Part shown: positions 4,808-16,242 of the stretch, piece after piece
Layout: every line of letters begins with the position of its first letter
Numbering within the stretch: position 1 is the stretch's first letter
NCBI RefSeq assembly: GCF_014207985.1
Contig: NZ_JACHMI010000001.1
Coordinates: 11,639,001 to 11,703,000 of the forward strand
Direction: 5' to 3'
Length of the DNA stretch: 64,000 bases
DNA from: Nonomuraea rubra
Lineage (GTDB): Bacteria > Actinomycetota > Actinomycetes > Streptosporangiales > Streptosporangiaceae
Program-made: the position numbers and the translations under genes
The notes under the pieces: generated by a model
What the model was told of the DNA's origin: nothing
Database searches by the model: none
What the model saw: only the letters and a program-made list of their open reading frames with translations

Positions 4808-5446
4808 GTGCCACTTCTGGAGATCAACGGTCTCACCTGGGAGACGCACGGGCTCCGGCGCCGCCTGTCGCCCGACCCGCTGACCCTCGACCCCGGCCAG
4901 ACCGCCGTGGTGGTGGCCGGGGGGCACGCGGAGGCCGACGCGTTCACCGACCTGCTGCTCGGCCTGGAGATGCCCGTCGGCGGCCCGATCCGCCTCGGCG
5001 GCCAGGAGATCACCATGCGGCTGCCGGCGGAGCGCGAGATCGGGCTGGTCCCGGCGGGCGCGGGGCTGCTGCCGCACCTGACCGTCGAGCGGAACCTGGC
5101 GCTGGCCGCGCGTGACGACCTGGCGCCGTCGTTCGTGCAGGGCCGGATCGCGTTCATGGCCAGGCGGATGGACATCCAGGGCTTCCTGCGTTCGAGGCCG
5201 CACGAGCTGGCCCACGACGAGCGGCTGAGCGTCGCGCTGGCGCGGGTCCTGTGCCGGCCGCTGCCCGTGAAGGTGGTGGTGATCGAGGACCGGACGGGCT
5301 GCGGGCCGTGCCACGGGGCCGTGAGCGGGGCGCTGGGCGCCGATCCCGGGCTGGCCGTGCTCGTCGTCACCGACGACGGCACCAGGGTGGCCAGCCTCGC
5401 CTCCCCCTCGTGCATCTGGGAGATCGCCGATGCCGATCAGCCGTAG
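4808..5446 (+). CDS. Catalytically dead ABC-ATPase-like protein
   Basis: About 212 residues that align by eye with an ABC transporter ATP-binding subunit along their whole length, yet every catalytic motif is changed. The Walker A slot reads AGGHAEADA, without the GxxGxGK[ST] lysine. The Q-loop reads GLVPAGAGLLPHLTV with Ala for Gln. The signature LSGGQ reads LAHDE. Walker B ends in IED rather than DE, and the H-loop position reads VTDD. The surrounding scaffold (LTLDPGQ, LLPHLTVERNLAL, VALARVLCRP) is well kept, so this looks like a maintained pseudo-ATPase rather than decay. GTG 4808 is the likely start (VPLLEINGL); an in-frame GTG at 4757 would add 17 unlike residues. It overlaps the next gene by 17 bp. 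Confidence 0.75.
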   Translation: MPLLEINGLTWETHGLRRRLSPDPLTLDPGQTAVVVAGGHAEADAFTDLLLGLEMPVGGPIRLGGQEITMRLPAEREIGLVPAGAGLLPHLTVERNLALAARDDLAPSFVQGRIAFMARRMDIQGFLRSRPHELAHDERLSVALARVLCRPLPVKVVVIEDRTGCGPCHGAVSGALGADPGLAVLVVTDDGTRVASLASPSCIWEIADADQP

Positions 5447-6653
5447 GGTGTTGCTGGCCGCCGTTCCCGCCGTGCTGGTGGCGGGCTGTGCCGGGCAGCC
5501 GCCGTTGCGGGTGGCGGTGGTCTGGAGCGGCGAGGAGTTACGCCGCTTCCTGCGTGTGGTGGACGCGTACGTCGCGGCCTTCCGGCGGCCCGTCAGCGTC
5601 TACTCGGCGGGCGACAACATCAGCGCGCTGCTGCGCGGCCCCGCCGAGGACGTCATCCCCGACGTGGCCGTCATCCCGCGCCTCGGGCTGCTCTTCGACC
5701 CCGTGGTACGGCCCCGCATCAGGCCCAGGACCGGCGGGCACGCGCAGCCGGAGTTCTGGCGGCGGCTGGTCACGCCTCGTGGGAGCGGGGAGGAGCTCGG
5801 CGCCTGGTTCAAGATCGCGAACAAGTCGCTGGTGTGGCAGCGTACGGGCGAGCAGTGGGCGCCGGCGAGCCTGACCTCCTGGCAGCCCCGCCCCGGCTCG
5901 CTGGCGATCGGCGCGGCCGACGGGTGGGTGCTCAGCGACTGGTTTGAGAACGTGCTGCTCGCCTACGCCCCCGAGGTGTACGACGGCCTCTTCCCGCCGG
6001 CGGAGCGGGGCAACCAGGCGTGGTGGGGCGTGGCCCAGGTCACCGAGGCGCTCACGCTGCTCGCCACGATCTGGCGCGAGGCGTTCACCCACGACCAGGG
6101 CCGGCGGGCGCTGACCATGCAGTTCCACGACTCGATCCTCGACGTGTTCAGCTACCGCACCGCCGACGTGGTGGCCGCGCCCGACTTCGCGCTGCCCGTC
6201 ATCGAGCTCTACGGCGGCCGGGACGTGGCCCGCCACTTCCCCTTCCCGCGGCACGGGGACAAACCGCCCCCGCTGGTGGTGGGGGGCGACGTGGCCGTGG
6301 CGATGCGCGGCGGCGGGCAGGACGCGCTCGACTTCGTGAACTGGCTGACCAGGCCGCGCGCCGCCGGCGAGCGTGACGCGCTGACCGACTGGGTGGACGA
6401 GGGCGGCTTCCTGACCCCGTACAGGGCGCCGTCGCACCCCCTGCTGCGCGCGCCCGCGCAGGCGCTGAGCAGGGCGGAGAACCGCCACTACGACCTGTCC
6501 GACCGGCTCATCGGCAGGTTGGAAGGCGGCGACGGGCGCGGGTTGTGGCGGGTGCTCACCGAGCTGTTCACCGACGTCACCGCGGGCACGGTCGCGCCCG
6601 CCACGGCGGCCGCGGCCGCCCGCGAGAAGATCGTGGAGGGCGCCGCCCGATGA
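5430..6653 (+). CDS. Solute-binding lipoprotein of an ABC-like system
   Basis: A 407-residue protein with a lipoprotein signal: two arginines, a hydrophobic stretch and the lipobox LVAGC (Cys20). The body has the general look of type-1 ABC extracellular solute-binding proteins of the carbohydrate type, with ALLRGPAEDVIPDVAVIPRL in the early hinge region and LPVIELYGGRD later. It should be anchored outside the membrane and deliver or sense a ligand for the adjacent permease. It overlaps the pseudo-ATPase gene by 17 bp upstream and the permease gene by ATGA downstream. The ligand is unknown. Confidence 0.75.
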   Translation: MPISRRVLLAAVPAVLVAGCAGQPPLRVAVVWSGEELRRFLRVVDAYVAAFRRPVSVYSAGDNISALLRGPAEDVIPDVAVIPRLGLLFDPVVRPRIRPRTGGHAQPEFWRRLVTPRGSGEELGAWFKIANKSLVWQRTGEQWAPASLTSWQPRPGSLAIGAADGWVLSDWFENVLLAYAPEVYDGLFPPAERGNQAWWGVAQVTEALTLLATIWREAFTHDQGRRALTMQFHDSILDVFSYRTADVVAAPDFALPVIELYGGRDVARHFPFPRHGDKPPPLVVGGDVAVAMRGGGQDALDFVNWLTRPRAAGERDALTDWVDEGGFLTPYRAPSHPLLRAPAQALSRAENRHYDLSDRLIGRLEGGDGRGLWRVLTELFTDVTAGTVAPATAAAAAREKIVEGAAR

Positions 6654-8350
6654 GCGAGCAGAACGCCTTCCTGTTCGAGGTGGCCCCGCACCACGACGCC
6701 AGGGTGCCGGTGGCCGGTCAGGGGCTCAGCCGCTGGCGGGCCGCCCTCTACCTGCTGCTGGCGGTGCTGCTGTCGGCGGGCGTGATCCTGGCCCCGCTCC
6801 TGGTGACCGTGCTCATCAGCTTCTCCAGGCCCGGCGCCTGGTCCGACGTGCTGAGCGACGGCCAGGCCTGGCAGGCGGTCGGCAACACGCTGATCTGGTG
6901 GGTGCTGGTCGTGGTCGTGTGCGCGGTGGGCCTCGGCCTGGCCTGGCTGGTCAGGAACGCCGGCCCCGCGCTCGGCCTGGTCATGCGGGTCATCCTGGTG
7001 CTGCCCGCCGTGGTCTCCCCGCTCACCACGGGAGCGATCTTCCGGCTGCTGTTCGACACCAGCCGCGAGCGCGGCATGGCCGCCGCCCTGCTGGGCAGGG
7101 ACACGGCCTTCCTCGGGCCCGGCTGGATCTGGCTGGTGCTCGGGCTGGCCTTCGTCTGGCAGTACGCCGGCGTCGCGTTCCTGGTCTTCCACGAGGCGCT
7201 GAACCGGCTGCCGTCGAACCTGCTGCGCATGGCCAGGGCGTTCGGCGTCGGGCGGCAGCGGCGGCTCTGGTCCGTGGTGCTGCCCGCGCTGGCCGGGCCG
7301 GCCGCGCTGGCGTACCTGTTCGCGCTGGTGGCGGCGGCCCGCGTGTTCGACCTGGTGCTGATGGGGGTGCCGGGGGCGACGCAGGCGCTGGTGGAGGGCG
7401 GCGGGCTGTACTGGTGGCGGCACAACGACGATCTGGGCGACGCCGGGGCCGCCGCGCTGGCCGTGCTGATGTCCCTGCTGGTGGCGGGGCTGGCCTCGCT
7501 GGCGCTGCTCGGCCTGCGGGGGCGGGTGAGCTGGGCGGATCCGGCTCCCGTGGCGCCGCCCCCGGCTGGCCGGGGCCGGCGGTTGTGGCCGCTCGGCGGC
7601 GCGGTGGCGGTGCTGTGGCTGCTGCCGTTCGCGGCGCTGCTGTTCACGTCCCTGCGCGAGCCGGTCGCCGCCGCGCGGACCGGGTGGTGGAACGGCGAGC
7701 CGTGGACGCTCGGCTCGTACGCGGAGGCGCTGTCCGACAGCGCGTTCACCGGGGCGCTGGGCACCACGTTCCTCCGGGCCGTCGCGGTGGTGTGCGTGGT
7801 GCTGCTGGCCTCGGTGCCGGCCGCGTACGTGCTGGCCCACGAGCACCTGCTGCCCCGGCGCGCCTGGCGGCCCGTCCTGCTGGTGTCGGTGGCCCTGGCG
7901 GCGCTGCCGCCGCAGGCGTTCGCCGTGCCGCTGCAGCGCTGGCTGAGCCCGGTCGGCACCCCGCTCGCGCTGATCATCGTGCACGCGGCGCTGGTGATGC
8001 CGCTGGCGGTGCTGGTGCTGCACAACGCGTTCGTCCGGGTGCCCGCCCCCATGCTCGCGCGGGACCGGTGGGAGCTGTTCCACGTGGTACGCGAGGCGCG
8101 CCCGGCCGTGGTGCTGGCCGGGGTGCTGGCGTTCGTCCTGGTCTGGAACGACGCGGTCGTCGGGCTGCTGCTCAACTGGCCGTCCGGCGACCACCTGCCG
8201 CTGATCCTGCTGGAGCAGGCCCGCCACTTCATGAGCGCGGCGAGCCCGCTGGCGGCGCAGGCGGTGATCGCCACAGCGGTGCCCGTGCTGGTGGTGGCCG
8301 TGACCGCGCGCCGGCTCTACAGAGGGCTGACCCGGGGGGTGCGCCGGTGA
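6650..8350 (+). CDS. Fused double-domain ABC transporter permease
   Basis: A 566-residue protein with about 12 hydrophobic helices, made of two MetI-like (binding-protein-dependent transport inner membrane component) domains in tandem. The split is near residue 300, around a Pro/Arg-rich linker. The first domain keeps a good EAA coupling loop (EALNRLPSNLLRMARAFG ... VVLP). In the second domain the matching loop (FVRVPAPMLARDRWELFHVV) has lost the conserved glycine. EAA loops normally dock the ATPase, so partial loss fits with the partner ATPase being dead. The ATG overlaps the lipoprotein stop (ATGA), and the end overlaps the next GTG (GTGA). Confidence 0.8.
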   Translation: MSEQNAFLFEVAPHHDARVPVAGQGLSRWRAALYLLLAVLLSAGVILAPLLVTVLISFSRPGAWSDVLSDGQAWQAVGNTLIWWVLVVVVCAVGLGLAWLVRNAGPALGLVMRVILVLPAVVSPLTTGAIFRLLFDTSRERGMAAALLGRDTAFLGPGWIWLVLGLAFVWQYAGVAFLVFHEALNRLPSNLLRMARAFGVGRQRRLWSVVLPALAGPAALAYLFALVAAARVFDLVLMGVPGATQALVEGGGLYWWRHNDDLGDAGAAALAVLMSLLVAGLASLALLGLRGRVSWADPAPVAPPPAGRGRRLWPLGGAVAVLWLLPFAALLFTSLREPVAAARTGWWNGEPWTLGSYAEALSDSAFTGALGTTFLRAVAVVCVVLLASVPAAYVLAHEHLLPRRAWRPVLLVSVALAALPPQAFAVPLQRWLSPVGTPLALIIVHAALVMPLAVLVLHNAFVRVPAPMLARDRWELFHVVREARPAVVLAGVLAFVLVWNDAVVGLLLNWPSGDHLPLILLEQARHFMSAASPLAAQAVIATAVPVLVVAVTARRLYRGLTRGVRR

Positions 8351-10623
8351 CGGAGATCTCGCGCAGGGAGCGGCTGAGCTTCCGGCTGTCGCGCCTGTAC
8401 CGGCGGGCCGCGGCGCACCTGCCAGAGCTGGGGATCGGCGGGGTGCTGACGGTGGGCGGCACGATCCTGATCCTCCAGGAGGAGCTGATCAAGCAGCTCA
8501 TCGGCGGGTTCCCGACCTGGTTGCTGATCGTGCTCGTCCTGGTGGTGCCGGTCGTGGCGGGCGTGCTCACGTACCTGGTGCGCCGCCGCCGTCCCGAGCC
8601 CGGGCCCCGGCCGGTCCTGGCGGCCATGCCGTTCCCCGACCGGGTGGACGGCCTGGTGGGCAGGGACGCCGAGCTGCGGCGGATCAAGGAGGAGGCCCTG
8701 GAGCACGGGATCGTCGTGGTGCACGGCGGCATCGGCATGGGCACGTCCTCCGTGGCCATCCAGGCGGGGTGGGACCTGGCGGGCGAGGAGCGCAAGCAGC
8801 GCTACGCCGACCTGCGCGGCCCCGACAGGGACCGTCCCGAGACGCCGCTGAGCGTGGCCCAGCGGGTGCTGCGCACGCTGAACCGCCCGCCGGGCGGCAT
8901 CCAGGAGCCACAGGACGCGACCGCGCAGGTGATCGAGGCGCTCACCGGCACGGGCTGCGTGCTCCTGCTGGACAACGTCAGCTCGTGGAGCCAGGTCGAG
9001 TGGCTGCCGACCCGGGTGCCCGGCGCGCACGTCGTGGTGGCGGGCACGCTCACCGACCCGCCGCCGCAGCACGTGCAGCCCATCCAGCTCGGCCCGCTCG
9101 CCCCCGACGCGGGCCGGGCCCTGCTCACCCGCCACCTCGGCGCCGAGCGGGGCTCCCCCGACCCGAAGGCGCTGGACCTGCTGGTCGACTCCTGCCTGGG
9201 CAGCCCGCTGGAGATCGTCAGGGTCGGCCGCTGGCTGGCGGGCAATCCGAACGTGCCGCTCCAGACGCTGGTGGACGACCTGCGCAGCCTGTCTGTCGCC
9301 GACACGCTCGACTTCGTGCTCGGGCTCAGCGTCAAGCAGCTCAGGCCGACGGCCAAGCAGCTCTTCGTGCTGCTGGCCGGGCTGCCGATCGCGGAGGTGG
9401 ACCACCAGGCCGCCGCCGCGCTGCTCGGCGTGCCGTCCGCCGCGGACGCGATCAACGAGCTGGCCGAGCTTGGGCTGGTGGAGAACGTCCGGATGACGCG
9501 CGTCAGGGTGTCGAGCGCGTTCCGCGGCGGCGGCGCGGACAGCACGCCCCGGGAGGTGGCGGCCTGGCGGCGGCTGGTCGAGCACTTCGCCGAGCAGGCC
9601 GGCGCGTACGCGGAGCGGCTGCCCGCCGAGGAGGCCAGGACCTGGTTCGCGATGGAGGACCGGGTGCTGCTCCAGGTGCTGGCCCGCAAGGCGCCCGCGC
9701 CCAGGACCGGGCGCGCGCTCGCGCGGATCGCGGACGCGCTGGAGACCTGGTTCCGGCTCGAACAGCGGCACGAGGACCGGCTGCGCGCGGCGGCGGAGCT
9801 GGCCAGGGCCGCAGAGGCGCTCGGGGACGAGCCGGTGCAGGCCACGGCCGAGCTGCGCCAGTGCGCGATCCTGCTCACCTCGGGCGACCCGCGCAAGGCG
9901 CGCCAGCACTTCAACCGCTCGGCGGCGCTGCGGGTCAGGGTCGAGTCGTGGCCTGCGGAGCTGCACCTGGCGCACGCGGCGATCCTCCTGTCCGGCGGCG
10001 ACGAGTTCACCGCCGTCGAGTCCGCCCTCGTCCGGTACGGGCAGGCGCTGGCCGGCGGCGACGTCCTCGGCCAGGCCATCCGGCTGGCGAACGTGGCGGC
10101 GCTGCTCATGCGCAGGGGCCAGACGCTCGACCACGACGGCCGCGGCCCCGAGGCCCGCAGCCTGTACACCAACGCCAGGGTGGTGCTGTTCCAGGCGGTC
10201 GACCTGGCGCGGCGGGCCGGCGAGCCCGCGACCGAGGCGCACGCCCAGGAACTGCTCGCGCTGGCCCACCACTACCTGGGCCAGAGCCACGACGCCGGCC
10301 TCCACCTGGACGAGGCCGAGCGGCTCTACGCCGGGGCGGCGGACGAGCTGGGGCGGGCGCGCTGCCTGGTGCACCGGGCCGGGATCATGCTGGAGGACCC
10401 CGGGCAGGCCGCCGACGCGGTGGCGGCGCTGCTGGAGGAGGCCGAGCCGCGGCTGCCCCAGGCAGGGGTGAGCACCGCGCTGGTCCACCTGCACCTGGGC
10501 AGGCTGCGGAGGGAGCGCGCCGCGGAGCACCGGGAGGCCGGGCTGGCGGCCCTGTCACCCTGGGACGGGATCGCCGAGCCCAGGCAGGTCAGCGAGCTGC
10601 GGGCGCTGTTATCGGCCCTGTGA
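8347..10623 (+). CDS. Membrane-anchored NB-ARC/TPR-like protein with degenerate P-loop
   Basis: A 758-residue protein. Two N-terminal membrane helices (about 29-45 and 56-78) are followed by a STAND-like NTPase region that opens with DGLVGRDAELRRI (101-113). The remaining 400 residues are helical TPR-like repeats rich in Ala/Leu/Arg. The P-loop reads GGIGMGTSS (about 127-135), so the Walker A lysine is replaced by threonine. Walker B is LLLDNVSS, and the usual TSR sensor slot reads AGT. Nucleotide hydrolysis is therefore doubtful. The GTG start overlaps the permease stop (GTGA), making it the last gene of the operon with the pseudo-ATPase. It could be a cytoplasmic scaffold or sensor for that complex. 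Confidence 0.7.
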   Translation: MTEISRRERLSFRLSRLYRRAAAHLPELGIGGVLTVGGTILILQEELIKQLIGGFPTWLLIVLVLVVPVVAGVLTYLVRRRRPEPGPRPVLAAMPFPDRVDGLVGRDAELRRIKEEALEHGIVVVHGGIGMGTSSVAIQAGWDLAGEERKQRYADLRGPDRDRPETPLSVAQRVLRTLNRPPGGIQEPQDATAQVIEALTGTGCVLLLDNVSSWSQVEWLPTRVPGAHVVVAGTLTDPPPQHVQPIQLGPLAPDAGRALLTRHLGAERGSPDPKALDLLVDSCLGSPLEIVRVGRWLAGNPNVPLQTLVDDLRSLSVADTLDFVLGLSVKQLRPTAKQLFVLLAGLPIAEVDHQAAAALLGVPSAADAINELAELGLVENVRMTRVRVSSAFRGGGADSTPREVAAWRRLVEHFAEQAGAYAERLPAEEARTWFAMEDRVLLQVLARKAPAPRTGRALARIADALETWFRLEQRHEDRLRAAAELARAAEALGDEPVQATAELRQCAILLTSGDPRKARQHFNRSAALRVRVESWPAELHLAHAAILLSGGDEFTAVESALVRYGQALAGGDVLGQAIRLANVAALLMRRGQTLDHDGRGPEARSLYTNARVVLFQAVDLARRAGEPATEAHAQELLALAHHYLGQSHDAGLHLDEAERLYAGAADELGRARCLVHRAGIMLEDPGQAADAVAALLEEAEPRLPQAGVSTALVHLHLGRLRRERAAEHREAGLAALSPWDGIAEPRQVSELRALLSAL

Positions 10624-10627
10624 GCGG

Positions 10628-11323
10628 TCAGACGGCCACCGTCGCCAGCGTCCTCCCGTCGAAGGTCTGGATGGTGAAGTGGTTCAGCTCGGACTGCGGG
10701 AGGCTGGTGCCGCCGTGCAGGAGCAGCGGGTCGGGCGAGCCGGGCACGCCGTACCCCTTCTCGGGCACGCCCCAGCTCGCGACGACCTCCGAGCGGCCGT
10801 CGTCGCCCACCGCCATGAGCCGGCACTGCAGCGGGCCCTTGACGCCCTTGAGCTCCAGCGCGACGTGGGTGCCCCAGCCCTTGTCCTCCACGCCGACGAG
10901 CCCGGACACGCCGGTGGCCGGGTCGCTGACGGGGTAGGTGCGGCCGGTCATGAGCAGGGCGCGGGCCGGGCTGTGGATGCTGTCGGGGTTGGGGCCGCTG
11001 GTGAAGGAGCTGACGCCGAGGAAGACGCCGGCCGCGACCACGAGGCACGCGGCGGCGGTCATGAAGCCGCGGTGGAGGCGGCGGCGCCTGCGCTCCTTGG
11101 CGGCGCGGTGGACCAGCAGGGACTCCACCTGCGGGTCGGCCGGATGGGGCAGGAGATCGTCCGGATGGACGGTCTTGATCAGCTCGCCCATCGCGGCGAA
11201 CGACCCCACTTCCGACGCGCAGCTCCCGCAGCCGTCCAGATGGCGCTCGAAAGCGGCCCGCTCCTCCTCGCTGAGCAGGCCGAGCGCGTACGCGGCCACG
11301 TCCTCGTGGTGTACCTCTGTCAT
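10628..11323 (-). CDS. Anti-sigma factor with zinc-finger (zf-HC2) domain
   Basis: A 231-residue membrane protein. An N-terminal zf-HC2 anti-sigma domain is visible (HH at 5-6, then H28, C32 and C35 in HLDGCGSC), followed by a basic stretch, one membrane helix (about 87-107) and an extracytoplasmic domain of about 120 residues that probably senses the envelope. Proteins of this type hold their ECF sigma factor inactive at the membrane. It lies 34 bp downstream of the sigma gene on the same strand, as expected for such a pair. The signal sensed is not known. Confidence 0.85.
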   Translation of the reverse strand: MTEVHHEDVAAYALGLLSEEERAAFERHLDGCGSCASEVGSFAAMGELIKTVHPDDLLPHPADPQVESLLVHRAAKERRRRRLHRGFMTAAACLVVAAGVFLGVSSFTSGPNPDSIHSPARALLMTGRTYPVSDPATGVSGLVGVEDKGWGTHVALELKGVKGPLQCRLMAVGDDGRSEVVASWGVPEKGYGVPGSPDPLLLHGGTSLPQSELNHFTIQTFDGRTLATVAV

Positions 11324-11357
11324 GGCGCCACCCCCCTGTCATCGTGACGCACCTGGA

Positions 11358-11882
11358 TCACGGCAGCGTCACCCCCCTTTCCTCCAGCGCGACCCGTAAG
11401 GCGCGCATGGCGTAGTACACGCGGGACTTCACCGTGCCCACGGGCACGCCGATCGTCTCCGCCGCCTCCTGGACGGTGCGGTCCAGGAGGAACGTCTCGG
11501 TGAGCACCTGCCGGTGCGCCGGGGAGAGCGACATCATCGCGTCGGTGACGACGATCTCCCGCAGGAGCTGCTCGTCCTCGGCCGCCACGGGCATGACGCG
11601 TTCGGGGATGTCCTCGACCGTGTCGAGGGGGCGGGAGCCGGAGCGGCGGCGGTTGTCGATGACGACCCGCCGCGCGACCGTGGCCAGCCAGGGCATCAGC
11701 GAACCTGAGTCCGTACGGAGGTCGTGAAGGTTGCGCCAGGCTCGGACCAGGGTCTCCTGGACGACGTCCTCGGCCCAGCGGCGATCGCCGCCCGTCAGCC
11801 TGACGGCGAAGGCCATCAGGGGGGCGCCATATTCGCGGTAGAGGGCTCTGACCATGGCCTCGTCGGTTACGCGGTGAGTCAC
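11358..11882 (-). CDS. ECF-type RNA polymerase sigma factor
   Basis: A sigma factor of about 174 residues. Region 2 is seen in LYREYGAPLMAFAVRLTGG ... WAEDVVQETLVRAWRN, and the region 4 helix-turn-helix in VQEAAETIGVPVGTVKSRVYYAMRAL. The WLATVARRVVIDNRR segment is typical of ECF factors paired with zf-HC2 anti-sigma proteins. GTG 11882 is chosen because GAGGAG lies 8 bases before it; the longer reading to 11960 has no such site. It is divergent from the secretion ATPase gene at 12052, so it may control that island; this is inference. Confidence 0.88.
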   Translation of the reverse strand: MTHRVTDEAMVRALYREYGAPLMAFAVRLTGGDRRWAEDVVQETLVRAWRNLHDLRTDSGSLMPWLATVARRVVIDNRRRSGSRPLDTVEDIPERVMPVAAEDEQLLREIVVTDAMMSLSPAHRQVLTETFLLDRTVQEAAETIGVPVGTVKSRVYYAMRALRVALEERGVTLP

Positions 11883-12035
11883 TCCGGGGCTCCTCGCGCA
11901 GCGGATATCATGAAATATCGCGCTCGGTAGGCTGATATTGAGAATTATCACTCTAGCCACGAGGCGAGGCCAGGGTTGGGTAGTTTGCCCGTCTCGCCGT
12001 ATAGCTAGATTTATCCGTTAAATCGTGCTTCAGTC

Positions 12036-12051
12036 CCCTGGAGAGGGGATT
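12036..12051 (+). promoter_or_regulatory. Ribosome binding site fixing the start of the FHA-FtsK gene
   Basis: GGAGAGG lies just upstream of ATG 12052 with normal spacing. This supports 12052 over the in-frame GTG at 12025. The 170 bp between the sigma factor start (11882) and this ATG is A/T-richer than its surroundings and must hold both divergent promoters; I cannot assign the -35 and -10 boxes with confidence. Confidence 0.6.
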
Positions 12052-15000
12052 ATGATCATTCGGTTGACGATCCGCGATCCGGCGGCCTCCACCGCCGTCG
12101 ACGCCGAGGTGACGGCGGAGCCCGAGACCCTCGTCGGCTCGCTGCTGCGGGCGCTGCCCTTCCCCGTCAGAGGCCGCCCCTGTTACGTCGGCGGCGACAA
12201 GCTCGACCCCGACTCCCGCGTCGCCGACAGCCCCCTGGTGCCGGGGGCGACGATCAGCGTGGGCGAGCCGGAGCGTACGCAGCCCTGGCGGCCGCTGGCG
12301 GCGGCGGGCGCGATCCGCGTGTTCGCCGGCCCGGACGCCGGCCGGGTGATCTGGCTCAGCCCCGGCAGCTACGTCATCGGCCGCGAGTGGACCGACCTCA
12401 GCCTGCCGCGCGACCAGAAGGCGTCCAGGCGGCACGCCCGCCTCGACGTGTCGTGGACCGGCGAGGCCACGGTCGTCGATCTCGGCTCGCGCAACGGCAC
12501 CCTGGTGAACGAGCTGCGCGTCCAGAGCCCGGTGGCGCTGCGTCCCGACGGGGTGCTCCAGGTGGGCGACGACCGGATGCGGTGGGCGCCGCTGCCGTCC
12601 ACCCGGCTCAGGACCACCCGCGCGCGGGACGGCCGCATCGACTTCGACCGGGCCTTCTCCCCCGCCCCAGCCGTCGCGGGCGCCCGCATCACCATGCCCA
12701 GGAACGAGATCCCGCAGCGCAATATCGCCGTGGCGCTGATTTCGTCACTGTTGCCGCTGCCGATATCGATCGCGATGGCAGTCCTGTTGAAAAGTCCATA
12801 TTTTCTGCTGTTCGGAATTCTGACGCCGATCACGTTCTTCGGCACGCAGTGGGTGGAAGGGCGGCAGCGCAAGAAGAAAGAGCGCGAGTTCGACCAGCGC
12901 AAACGCGACACGCTTGAACGCATCAGGCAGCACGTCGTGCACGAGCAGTGGTTGCGGCACGTCGTCGCGCCCGACGAGGTGGACCTGACGTTCGCCGCCA
13001 CTCACGAGGGGCCGGGCCTGTGGCCGCGCAACGCCGACTCGCCCGACGGGCTCACCCTGCGCGTCGGCGTGGCGGACGAGCCGGCCACGATCACGTTCGA
13101 CGGCGAGCCGTGGCCGGAGTTCACGCCGCCGGTCCTGCGCGGCGTGCCCGTCACCGTGGACCTGCGCCAGATCGGCGTGCTGGGCGTCATCGGCCCGCCG
13201 GAGCCGGTGGACGCGCTGCTGCGCTGGCTGCTGGTCCAGCTCGGCACCCTGCGCGCGCCCGACGAGCTGCGGCTGGTGGTGATCACCGCGTCCGGGGGCG
13301 GGCACCTGGCCTGGGCGCGCTGGCTGCCGCACCTGAACGTGGACGCCCCCGTACCGTGCCTGGTCGGCAACACGCCCGAGACCCGCACGGAACGCATCGA
13401 GGAGCTCAAGGACCTGGTCACCGAGCGGCTCAAGGCCAAGGAGCGGCGCGTCGCCTTCGGCGAGGAGATCGTCGTCGTCCTCGACGGGGCGCGGGCGTTA
13501 CGCGACATCCCCGGCATGAAGGAGGTGCTGCGGGAGGGCCCCTCCGTCGGCGTGTACGTGATCTGCGCCGACCAGCGCAGCCTGAACGAGTGCCGCGGCG
13601 TCTGCGAGCTGGACGGCACCGGCATGCTGCTCACCAGGGGCCGCCAGGGCCTGCCGGTCGCCGTGCAGCCCGAGAGCCTCGGCGAGCAGGCCGCCGAGCG
13701 CATCGCCCGCGCCGTGGCGCCCATGCGCGACCGCCTCACCCTGGCCAGGGCCGAGAGCGTCATCCCCGACGCCGTACGCCTGCTCGACGCGCTCGGCCTG
13801 GGCGTCCCCGGCCCCGAGGCCGTGCTGGCGCGCTGGGCCGCCGACCCCGGGCCCACGACGAAGGTGTGCATCGGCGCCGACGGCACCGGCCCCGTGACCG
13901 TGGACCTCGCGGCGGACGGGCCGCACACGATGCTCGGCGGGGCCACGGGCGCGGGCAAGAGCATCCTGCTGCAGACCCTGGTCACCTCGCTGCTGCTGGC
14001 CAACCGCCCCGACGAGCTGAACCTGGTGCTCGTCGACTTCAAGGGCGGCAGCGCGTTCCTGCCGTTCGAGCACTGCCCGCACGTGGTCGGGCTGATCCGC
14101 TCGACCGGCGACACCGCCGCGGACGTCTTCGACGAGAGCGCCGCCCGCCGCGTCCTGGCCTCCGTACGGGCCGAGGTGCGGCGGCGCGAGGCCATCCTCG
14201 CCAGGTACGGCGGCGAGATCGACGCCTACTGGAACGCCGGAGGGCGGCTGCCCCGGCTGGTCATGGTGTTCGACGAGTTCGCCCGCGTGCTGGAGACCTC
14301 GCCCGACTTCCTGCGCGAGCTGGTGAACGTGGCCGCCAAGGGCCGCTCGCTCGGCATGCACCTGGTGCTGGCCACGCAGTCGCTGCAGGGCAAGCTGTCA
14401 CCCGAGCTGAAGAACAACATCTCCCTGCGCATCACCCTGCGCCAGAACGAGCCCTCCGACAGCACCGAGGTGCTCGGCGTGCCCGACGCCGCCACGATCC
14501 CGTCACGGCTGCGCGGCCGCGGCATGATCATGCGGGTGGGCGGCGAGCAGCGCACTCCCCAGCTCTTCCAGACCGGCTACCTGGGCGACCCGCCGCCCAC
14601 CGGCTCGGCCCCCGCCACCGCCCGGCTGACGCCCTGGCCCGCGCTCGGGCTGCCGAGGCCGGAGCTCCGGGACGCGCCGCGGGCCAGCCGTACCGACCAG
14701 GACCTGGCCATCGCGGCCGTGCTGGAGGCCGCGCCGCGCCTGTCCACCGAGCCGCCGTTCCGGCCCCTGCTGCCGCCCTTGCCCGCCGCGCTGCCGCTGA
14801 CCGCGCTGCCGGGGGCGGGCGGGGTGCCGTTCGCGCTGCTGGACGACCCGGCCAACCAGGCGCAGCCCGCCATGGGGCTGGACCTGGGCGGGACCGAGCG
14901 GCTCATGGTGGCAGGGGGGCCGCAGTCGGGGCGCACGACGTTCTGCCGGACGCTGATCTCCAGCCTGGCGGCGCGCTGCTCGCCCGAGCAGGTGTGGCTG

Positions 15001-16242
15001 TACGTGGTGGAGAACCAGCCGGGCGGGCTGGCCGCGTACGCGTCGCTGCCGCACTGCGGGGCCGTCATCGGCGGCGGGGAGCCCGACCGGATCAGGCGGC
15101 TGGTGACGTGGCTGGCCGAGGAGGTGGAGCGGCGGCGGCTGGCCCGCCTGTCGCCCGGGGAGCCGTCCGCGCCGGTGATCGTGCTCGTCATCGACGGGTG
15201 GGAGTACTTCGAGGATCGCGGCAGCCCCGACTTCTTCGAGACGCCGCTGCTCGTCACCCTGCGCGGGATCGTGGCCGGCGGGCCGCCCGTGGGCGTCCAC
15301 ACGGTGGCCGTGGGCGGGCACGACATGTTGCGGGGCAAGACGCCCGACCTGTTCTCACGGCGGCTGTTCCTGCCGTTCCCCCGGGAGGAGACGCGGCGGT
15401 CGTACCTGACGTCCGGCATGGTGTCGCCGCCCGTACTCGCCGGACGGGCCATCGAGGCGGCCGGCGGGCTGCACGCCCAGATCTGCCTCCCACCCGAGGA
15501 CCTGCCCGCCCCCGCCCGCCGCCCCTCCCACGCCCGCCCCGCCCAAGGCCCCAAGCCCTTCCCGCCGCTCCCGGCCGCCGTCCCGCTGGGCGAGCTGCCG
15601 GACCAGGCCATCGGCGTCGGCGGCCCCGACGTCACCCCCGTCGAGCTCGACCTCTTCGACCTCGGTCCCCACCTCGTGCTGGTCTCCGGCCCCTCCGGCT
15701 CGGGCCGCAGCAACGCGGCGCTGGTCATGGCCACCGTACTGCTGCGGGCGGGGGTGCGGGTCCTGGCCATCGGGCCGCCCCGCTCGCCGCTGGTGCGCTC
15801 GCTGCCCGAGGCGCGGGCGCTTGCGGGCACCTCGTTCACGGACGCCGCCCTGCGGGAGGCCGTGGAGGCTTTCGAGGGGGAACGGTACGCGGTGGTGGTG
15901 GACGACCTCGACCAGGTGACCGTCACGGCCAGGGAGCAGGGGTTCGACACCCTGCCCACGTTGCTGCAGGACATCCTCGCGCCGTCGGAGCTGGGGCGGC
16001 GGGCGCTGGTGTTGTGCGGGGACGCCACGCCGCTGCTGGAGGGGCACCGGCGGGCACTGTCGGGCGAGGTGAGCGAGGTGCTGCGGTCGGGAACCCGGTT
16101 CCTGCTGACGCCCACCAGCCGGGTGCACGCCCGCGAGCACGGCATCAACCTGGAGCCGGACCAGTTCTTCGGGGGGCCGGTGGGGCGGGCGTACATGGGG
16201 ACGGCTCGGCGGCTGGATCTGGTGCAGTTCGCGGTGCTTTAG
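12052..16242 (+). CDS. EssC/EccC-like type VII secretion ATPase (FHA + FtsK/SpoIIIE)
   Basis: A 1396-residue protein. In order it has an N-terminal ubiquitin-like or beta-rich domain (1-80), an FHA domain (about 92-175, with IGRE, SRRHA and GSRNGT), two membrane helices (about 224-263), and three FtsK/SpoIIIE-type ATPase domains. Domain 1 has a full Walker A (GGATGAGKS, near 628) and Walker B (LVMVFDEFA). Domains 2 and 3 have Arg for the Walker A Lys (GPQSGRTT near 956; GPSGSGRS near 1211), with Walker B-like VLVIDG and VVVDDLD. This is the FHA-membrane-D1-D2-D3 plan of EssC, the motor that recognises WXG100 substrates. Its stop overlaps the convergent zinc-ribbon gene by four bases. Confidence 0.88.
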   Translation: MIIRLTIRDPAASTAVDAEVTAEPETLVGSLLRALPFPVRGRPCYVGGDKLDPDSRVADSPLVPGATISVGEPERTQPWRPLAAAGAIRVFAGPDAGRVIWLSPGSYVIGREWTDLSLPRDQKASRRHARLDVSWTGEATVVDLGSRNGTLVNELRVQSPVALRPDGVLQVGDDRMRWAPLPSTRLRTTRARDGRIDFDRAFSPAPAVAGARITMPRNEIPQRNIAVALISSLLPLPISIAMAVLLKSPYFLLFGILTPITFFGTQWVEGRQRKKKEREFDQRKRDTLERIRQHVVHEQWLRHVVAPDEVDLTFAATHEGPGLWPRNADSPDGLTLRVGVADEPATITFDGEPWPEFTPPVLRGVPVTVDLRQIGVLGVIGPPEPVDALLRWLLVQLGTLRAPDELRLVVITASGGGHLAWARWLPHLNVDAPVPCLVGNTPETRTERIEELKDLVTERLKAKERRVAFGEEIVVVLDGARALRDIPGMKEVLREGPSVGVYVICADQRSLNECRGVCELDGTGMLLTRGRQGLPVAVQPESLGEQAAERIARAVAPMRDRLTLARAESVIPDAVRLLDALGLGVPGPEAVLARWAADPGPTTKVCIGADGTGPVTVDLAADGPHTMLGGATGAGKSILLQTLVTSLLLANRPDELNLVLVDFKGGSAFLPFEHCPHVVGLIRSTGDTAADVFDESAARRVLASVRAEVRRREAILARYGGEIDAYWNAGGRLPRLVMVFDEFARVLETSPDFLRELVNVAAKGRSLGMHLVLATQSLQGKLSPELKNNISLRITLRQNEPSDSTEVLGVPDAATIPSRLRGRGMIMRVGGEQRTPQLFQTGYLGDPPPTGSAPATARLTPWPALGLPRPELRDAPRASRTDQDLAIAAVLEAAPRLSTEPPFRPLLPPLPAALPLTALPGAGGVPFALLDDPANQAQPAMGLDLGGTERLMVAGGPQSGRTTFCRTLISSLAARCSPEQVWLYVVENQPGGLAAYASLPHCGAVIGGGEPDRIRRLVTWLAEEVERRRLARLSPGEPSAPVIVLVIDGWEYFEDRGSPDFFETPLLVTLRGIVAGGPPVGVHTVAVGGHDMLRGKTPDLFSRRLFLPFPREETRRSYLTSGMVSPPVLAGRAIEAAGGLHAQICLPPEDLPAPARRPSHARPAQGPKPFPPLPAAVPLGELPDQAIGVGGPDVTPVELDLFDLGPHLVLVSGPSGSGRSNAALVMATVLLRAGVRVLAIGPPRSPLVRSLPEARALAGTSFTDAALREAVEAFEGERYAVVVDDLDQVTVTAREQGFDTLPTLLQDILAPSELGRRALVLCGDATPLLEGHRRALSGEVSEVLRSGTRFLLTPTSRVHAREHGINLEPDQFFGGPVGRAYMGTARRLDLVQFAVL

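Follow-up and report, generated by a model that had tools for sequence, protein, structure and literature searches.

Genes and features of the cassette

The window, a stretch of 64,000 nucleotides from the 12.9-Mb genome of Nonomuraea rubra, contains four genes on the forward strand that overlap by 17 bp, ATGA and GTGA, as the preliminary description had claimed. They code for an ABC-ATPase-like protein, a solute-binding lipoprotein, a fused double permease and a STAND/TPR protein.

4808–5446, +, pseudo-ATPase ORF, GTG start, 212 aa
4916–4942, +, degenerate Walker A, AGGHAEADA (residues 37–45)
5048–5086, +, Q-loop region, VPAGAGLLPHLTV (residues 81–93), Gln lost and much of the remainder nearly invariant
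5207–5221, +, degenerate signature, LAHDE at the LSGGQ position
5285–5290, +, reversed Walker B acidic pair, ED for DE
5372–5377, +, H-loop His replaced, TDD for THD
5430–6653, +, sugar-type solute-binding lipoprotein ORF (by profile similarity and lipobox), ATG start, 407 aa, 17-bp overlap with the pseudo-ATPase ORF
5487–5489, +, lipobox Cys (residue 20)
6650–8350, +, fused double permease ORF, ATG start, 566 aa, ATGA overlap with the lipoprotein ORF
7217–7291, +, first EAA loop, partly kept
8033–8110 (approximate limits), +, second EAA loop, eroded
8347–10623, +, membrane-anchored pseudo-STAND ORF (predicted NB-ARC, winged-helix-like part and TPR-like superhelix), GTG start, 758 aa, GTGA overlap with the permease ORF
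8428–8589, +, N-terminal hydrophobic helices, probable membrane anchor (residues about 28–81, low pLDDT)
8725–8751, +, STAND Walker A, GGIGMGTSS, Lys replaced by Thr

The identities proposed earlier for the first three proteins are in line with the lipobox cysteine and with Pfam matches above cutoff, at 28.7 bits for ABC_tran (cutoff 25) and 49.4 bits for BPD_transp_1 (cutoff 26.4), the permease having its domain but degenerate EAA loops. The predicted structure of the 212-residue pseudo-ATPase was an ABC NBD with its fold intact in the model, in agreement with the proposed ABC ATPase identity, and a non-ABC fold was rejected on these grounds. All the motif losses that had been named were present, the Q-loop reading VPA in place of V.Q.

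The losses were not peculiar to the window. Among 60 distinct orthologues (out of 70 rows, with the fragment P0033 left out), none had the Walker A Lys, the Q-loop Gln or the H-loop His, and the Walker B pair was ED in 58, the other two having Asp-Leu or Asp-Gly. Most carried acidic residues at flanking positions of Walker A. The 12 canonical ABC ATPases compared, all from paralogous loci and by our reading 9 MalK/AglK-like and 3 MacB/LolD-like, had the Lys, the Q-loop Gln, the His and Walker B in every case. A database search gave 46 matches, 33 from the close family and 13 weak ones to ordinary ABC ATPases (E 1e-8 or worse); those of the 33 closest relatives that name an organism were all Nonomuraea, and the Walker A Lys was absent from all 34 aligned family rows, window included. 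No intact intermediate between the canonical and the dead ATPase was seen among the loci examined. The least eroded pseudo-ATPase, at locus L048, reads GPSGFGGTT and is accompanied by a near-canonical first EAA loop, but it also has no Lys.

Around the lost Gln, the preceding Pro was invariant in 60/60 orthologues, and so were Leu, Pro and Asn in the LLPHLT....N stretch that follows. The Q-loop side of the NBD is the surface that meets the coupling helix of the permease in ABC importers, so docking of the pseudo-ATPase on the permease may have been kept while catalysis was lost. At the D-loop position (residues 164–172), most orthologues have a Pro-Cys-His/Arg motif (GPCHAAV-like), which is absent from L045 and L048.

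The fourth protein had been described as a STAND-like partner. Of this description the STAND–TPR fold stood up in the model and the membrane anchor is probable: the Pfam NB-ARC match was below threshold (15.5 bits, cutoff 23.5), and the predicted structure was a clear, intact STAND–TPR fold. A normal STAND switch did not, since the protein's own NTPase motifs are lost. In 34 distinct orthologues (among 52 sequences), Walker A read GTS in 32 and GAG in 2 and had Lys in none, the sensor-1 Arg was found in none and the Walker B Asp was kept in all. The Walker A Lys and TSR were kept in 8/8 STAND paralogues, four of which are copies of one upstream gene. No HTH output domain was matched in the pseudo-STAND.

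The lipoprotein matched no Pfam solute-binding protein (SBP) family. Its profile gave eight weak PDB matches (E 2.5e-5 to 2e-4), all named as binding sugar, xylo-oligosaccharide, trehalose or chitin-oligosaccharide and including the trehalose-binding LpqY, and the lipobox Cys was invariant in 13/13 aligned rows. By similarity and lipobox it appears to be a sugar-type SBP, whose ligand would be sugar-like. Across 27 four-gene systems 85 SBP columns were conserved at 90%; the residue was shared by at least 80% of the 14 canonical SBPs at 49 of these columns and by at least 80% of the 15 Nocardia SBPs at 61 (both groups described below), which argues that the binding core has been kept. A third, distant SBP relative lies elsewhere in the window genome (L129, G000:C1:4246589); its neighbours matched neither the permease nor the ATPase profile.

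The preliminary description had reported erosion of the second EAA loop of the permease. This was confirmed, down to loss of the Gly, but the second loop is not alone: in the first, the Gly is kept and the Glu and Asp of EAA..DG are gone. In a few four-gene permeases (P0129, P0136 and P0139) the Gly of the first loop is gone as well.

Distribution and selection

In the search of named genomes, 18 of 24 loci had all four genes in order, namely 12 in Nonomuraea (including [Actinomadura] parvosata), 3 in Streptosporangium and one each in an Actinoallomurus MAG, a Micromonospora and an Actinomycetales MAG; the other six (L046, L047 and L049–L052) had no cassette. Of a further 18 loci from the family, 17 had the complete cassette and the cassette of the other was truncated at a contig end; L127 added one more. 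With four repeats of named loci removed, this gave 33 distinct complete loci, window included, and the order and the overlaps were conserved, as predicted for other actinomycetes. The protein search with the fused permease returned at least 96 clusters with E values no worse than 1e-87, with the next match at E 1e-18, among the best 8000 candidates. Fused permeases from Actinophytocola, Flindersiella and Actinopolymorpha were among those seen in the permease searches. Among the titles and abstract openings listed in a library with few subscription papers, no published description of the four-gene cassette was found.

The cassette is distributed patchily. It was found in at least 16 of 54 Nonomuraea genomes by the STAND protein and in at least 20 of 200 genomes of the family by the SBP at a cut of 380 bits, both lower bounds because the best 19 (STAND) and best 9 (SBP) candidates per genome were scored. 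SBP searches of two more families at E 1e-60, where an empty result is no proof of absence, gave matches in 0/22 and 1/35 genomes; the single match (G417) scored 262 bits, as would be usual for the canonical form, and no permease match was found on its contig (L137, 7.7 kb). When 394 genomes of the class were searched with the best four candidates per genome, G000 and G057 gave matches at orthologue level, and G568 and G343 gave matches of the Nocardia type.

Against three near relatives, dN/dS (NG86, on high-GC genes) was 0.19, 0.40 and 0.33 for the pseudo-ATPase, 0.20–0.30 for the lipoprotein, 0.15–0.29 for the permease and 0.39–0.44 for the STAND protein, all below 1, as the preliminary description had expected of genes under constraint. 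Neighbouring genes in the same pairs gave 0.10–0.55. Since these ranges are comparable, the pseudo-ATPase is constrained about as much as its ordinary neighbours. More distant pairs (window–L031 and L032–L034) reached 0.72 for STAND and 0.65 for the SBP. Losses throughout the family, a predicted ABC fold and purifying selection together upheld the earlier proposal of a maintained system, one unable to hydrolyse ATP in the usual ABC manner.

Canonical paralogue and Nocardia form

The SBP profile also matched a common paralogue, at about 245–290 bits, in the majority of the family genomes searched and elsewhere in the class. We take this paralogue to be AglK/AglE/AglF/AglG-like and of the CUT1 class; 'alpha-glucoside transport system' is a label found among the matches to the fused permease. 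Like the cassette, 9/11 canonical loci had the order ATPase-SBP-permease-permease, and the SBP and permeases are homologous. Unlike it, they code for an ATPase of about 400 aa with an intact GPSGCGKT, separate permeases and no STAND gene, whereas the cassette has a dead ATPase of about half that length, a fused permease and an added STAND/TPR protein. The EAA..DGA pattern was found in the first permease of 11/11 canonical loci and, taken strictly, in the second of 5/11. In the window genome's own canonical copy (L128) both permeases carry EAA motifs, and no AglK-like ATPase lies next to them. The common gene order, the homology of SBP and permease and the intact ATPase of the canonical loci make the cassette look like a converted aglKEFG-type operon, and an aglKEFG-like operon with an intact ATPase was likely its ancestor. 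In the conversion the ATPase would have been shortened and inactivated, the permeases fused and a STAND gene added.

The class-wide SBP search also led to two related loci without an ATPase. This form proved widespread in Nocardia, where the fused permease was found in 37/59 genomes. The Nocardia-type permease was absent among the best 8000 candidates of the permease search above and was listed among the best 8000 of a second one. In 22/22 Nocardia loci the SBP and fused permease were adjacent on the same strand, and they are followed by a third protein whose match to the STAND profile is confined to its C-terminal part (position 337 onwards), when gene-call and six-frame searches were combined; L150 and L164 had this match in only one of the two. 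No same-strand ABC ATPase was found in any of the 22 loci (18–20 kb each), and four had a canonical ABC ATPase on the opposite strand. Applied to four-gene controls, this procedure recovered the ATPase in 7/7, although three of them (L045, L048 and L110, the last identical with L041) were in the training set of the profile. Five of the third proteins were compared with Pfam; they gave TPR-type matches, mostly below cutoff, and none matched NB-ARC or AAA. Thus, both NTPase modules are missing from 22/22 Nocardia loci, while the lipoprotein, the fused permease and the TPR protein are kept. As the STAND NTPase motifs are either lost or, in Nocardia, part of a domain that is not detectable, ADP/ATP switching by the usual mechanism is unlikely, judged from these sequences.

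In the SBP tree rooted on the canonical SBPs, Nocardia branched after the L045+L048 branch, followed by Streptosporangiaceae. The tree was drawn with a midpoint root, and this order requires the root to lie between the canonical SBPs and the rest. The key split had support of 97/96, the L045+L048 group 92/76 and monophyly of the canonical SBPs 78/38; 11 canonical rows had deviant composition, and L143, L125 and L129 were long. Given the assumed root, Nocardia branches after L045+L048 and therefore probably lost both NTPase modules when they were already dead.

Retention of the first EAA loop only alongside the pseudo-ATPase had been expected, and the Nocardia loops run against this expectation. 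With 89/95 four-gene-type and 83/96 Nocardia-type permeases kept after a length filter, the first EAA region was about equally conserved in the two groups (mean top-residue frequencies 0.60 and 0.62), and the second was more conserved in Nocardia (0.81 vs 0.64) and keeps a Gly. This suggests that some cytosolic partner may dock at the second region in Nocardia.

Interpretation, alternatives and precedents

We favour, at slightly better than an even chance, the reading that an aglKEFG-like importer was converted to a non-transporting membrane receptor that signals by conformation and docking. The operon anatomy, the predicted ABC and STAND folds, the loss of both NTPase sites, the purifying selection and the conserved SBP core are its basis, and from these we infer a ligand, docking, a direction of the signal and an output, as well as formation of a complex and signalling to the STAND partner. 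The lipoprotein would capture a sugar-like ligand outside the cell and dock on the fused permease, and the pseudo-ATPase would act as a non-hydrolysing adaptor that relays the conformation of the permease to the cytosol through the kept Q-loop region. It could then pass its state to the pseudo-STAND/TPR protein, which would serve as a scaffold or sequestering platform, comparable to MalK holding MalT. The conversion probably took place before the branches of Streptosporangiaceae, Nocardia and Micromonospora/RSA1 split. Against this reading, neither an output domain nor a conserved gene around the cassette was found, the distribution is patchy and the motif losses are compatible with weak nucleotide binding. 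The second EAA region weakens it further and strengthens the case for transport, since Nocardia conserves it more despite having no ATPase in the operon. The wider proposal, a whole actinobacterial class of importer-derived receptors in which a pseudo-NBD acts on a pseudo-STAND by conformation and in which Nocardia dropped both NTPases, is held tentatively, at somewhat less than an even chance.

The system could still be a transporter, its permease driven by a shared ATPase of the MsiK/AglK type from another locus, with the pseudo-ATPase as a heterodimer partner or a regulatory plug. Such a shared enzyme may exist, as the canonical copy in the same genome also has no AglK-like ATPase beside it; permease and SBP are well conserved, and the Gly-containing second EAA region of Nocardia may have something to dock there. 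However, both EAA loops in the window are without the canonical Glu and Asp, and the second is without Gly. Loss of both Walker A and the signature would leave neither composite site of a heterodimer complete, and transport would offer little explanation for a dead subunit. We therefore regard continued transport as unlikely. Less likely again is a passive surface module, in which the lipoprotein acts outside by glycan capture or as a decoy and the remainder anchors or localises it. It would fit the missing output domain and conserved neighbours and the missing NTPase modules in Nocardia, but even those loci retain a large TPR part in the cytosol, and a lipid anchor alone should hold a lipoprotein. 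We find it improbable that the two degenerate P-loop proteins bind ATP or ADP weakly and report the energy state without hydrolysis: both folds are intact in the models and the STAND Walker B Asp is universal, but the Walker A Lys is replaced in every orthologue, most ATPase orthologues have acidic residues beside it, the STAND sensor-1 Arg is lost and the Nocardia loci have neither module. Local gene decay en route to loss, which patchy presence might suggest, is hardly credible and was rejected because the same losses occur in 60/60 orthologues, frames remain open down to 30% identity and dN/dS is like that of the neighbours.

ABC exporters with one degenerate nucleotide site keep one of their two sites active, whereas no active NBD is coded in the cassette. 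What the two have in common is loss of NBD catalytic residues (PMC7756269). In the E. coli maltose system, MalK tethers the STAND protein MalT to the transporter while the latter is idle (PMC10427625). MalK and MalT are both functional NTPases, and MalT is an activator that binds DNA (see PMC10427625). In contrast to MalFGK2–MalT, the cassette has both NTPases dead and a membrane-anchored STAND protein, coded within the operon, in which no HTH was matched; the pseudo-STAND resembles MalT no more closely than Apaf-1. Judged from genes and models, the maltose system would be the nearest working precedent, and the cassette may be like MalK–MalT minus ATP. The iSTAND modules of Kaur et al. likewise have a STAND domain with eroded NTP motifs that is retained as a sensor or assembly part (PMC7159879, PMC8195603). 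Unlike the cassette, they are partnered with MoxR-vWA pairs or effector domains, and the terms solute-binding, permease and ABC transporter are absent from the main texts of both papers.

Hydrolysis of ATP is what defines an ABC importer, and switching between ADP and ATP what defines a STAND protein. The combination matters because here both NTPase sites are gone jointly and remain so in several genera of actinobacteria, with Nocardia lacking the two modules but retaining the other parts. If the cassette is a receptor, it would exemplify a natural route from transporter through transceptor to pure receptor, and signalling by a permease without ATP would become testable. The labels 'alpha-glucoside transport system permease protein' and 'ATP-binding cassette domain-containing protein' would then probably be misnomers within the cassette family.

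Other than ABC ATPases, no flanking family was common to more than 2 of 18 four-gene loci outside Nonomuraea, based on simple GC-based gene calls. An anti-phage defence system was considered and rejected: none of the four proteins matched a PADLOC family at E 1e-3, and there is no conserved island around the cassette. Directly 3' of it, on the opposite strand, lie a zf-HC2 anti-sigma factor and an ECF-type sigma factor (10628–11855, −), families common to 6/8 Nonomuraea loci compared and to none of the compared loci outside the genus. Nearby, at about 12025–16242 (+), is a large type VII secretion-like FHA-FtsK/SpoIIIE protein, presumably EccC-like. At four of the Nonomuraea loci compared (L029, L033, L035 and L127) a separate large STAND gene with an intact Walker A, GLPGVGKT, lies several kb 5' of the cassette (3123–4652 in L029 and 4432–6393 in L127).
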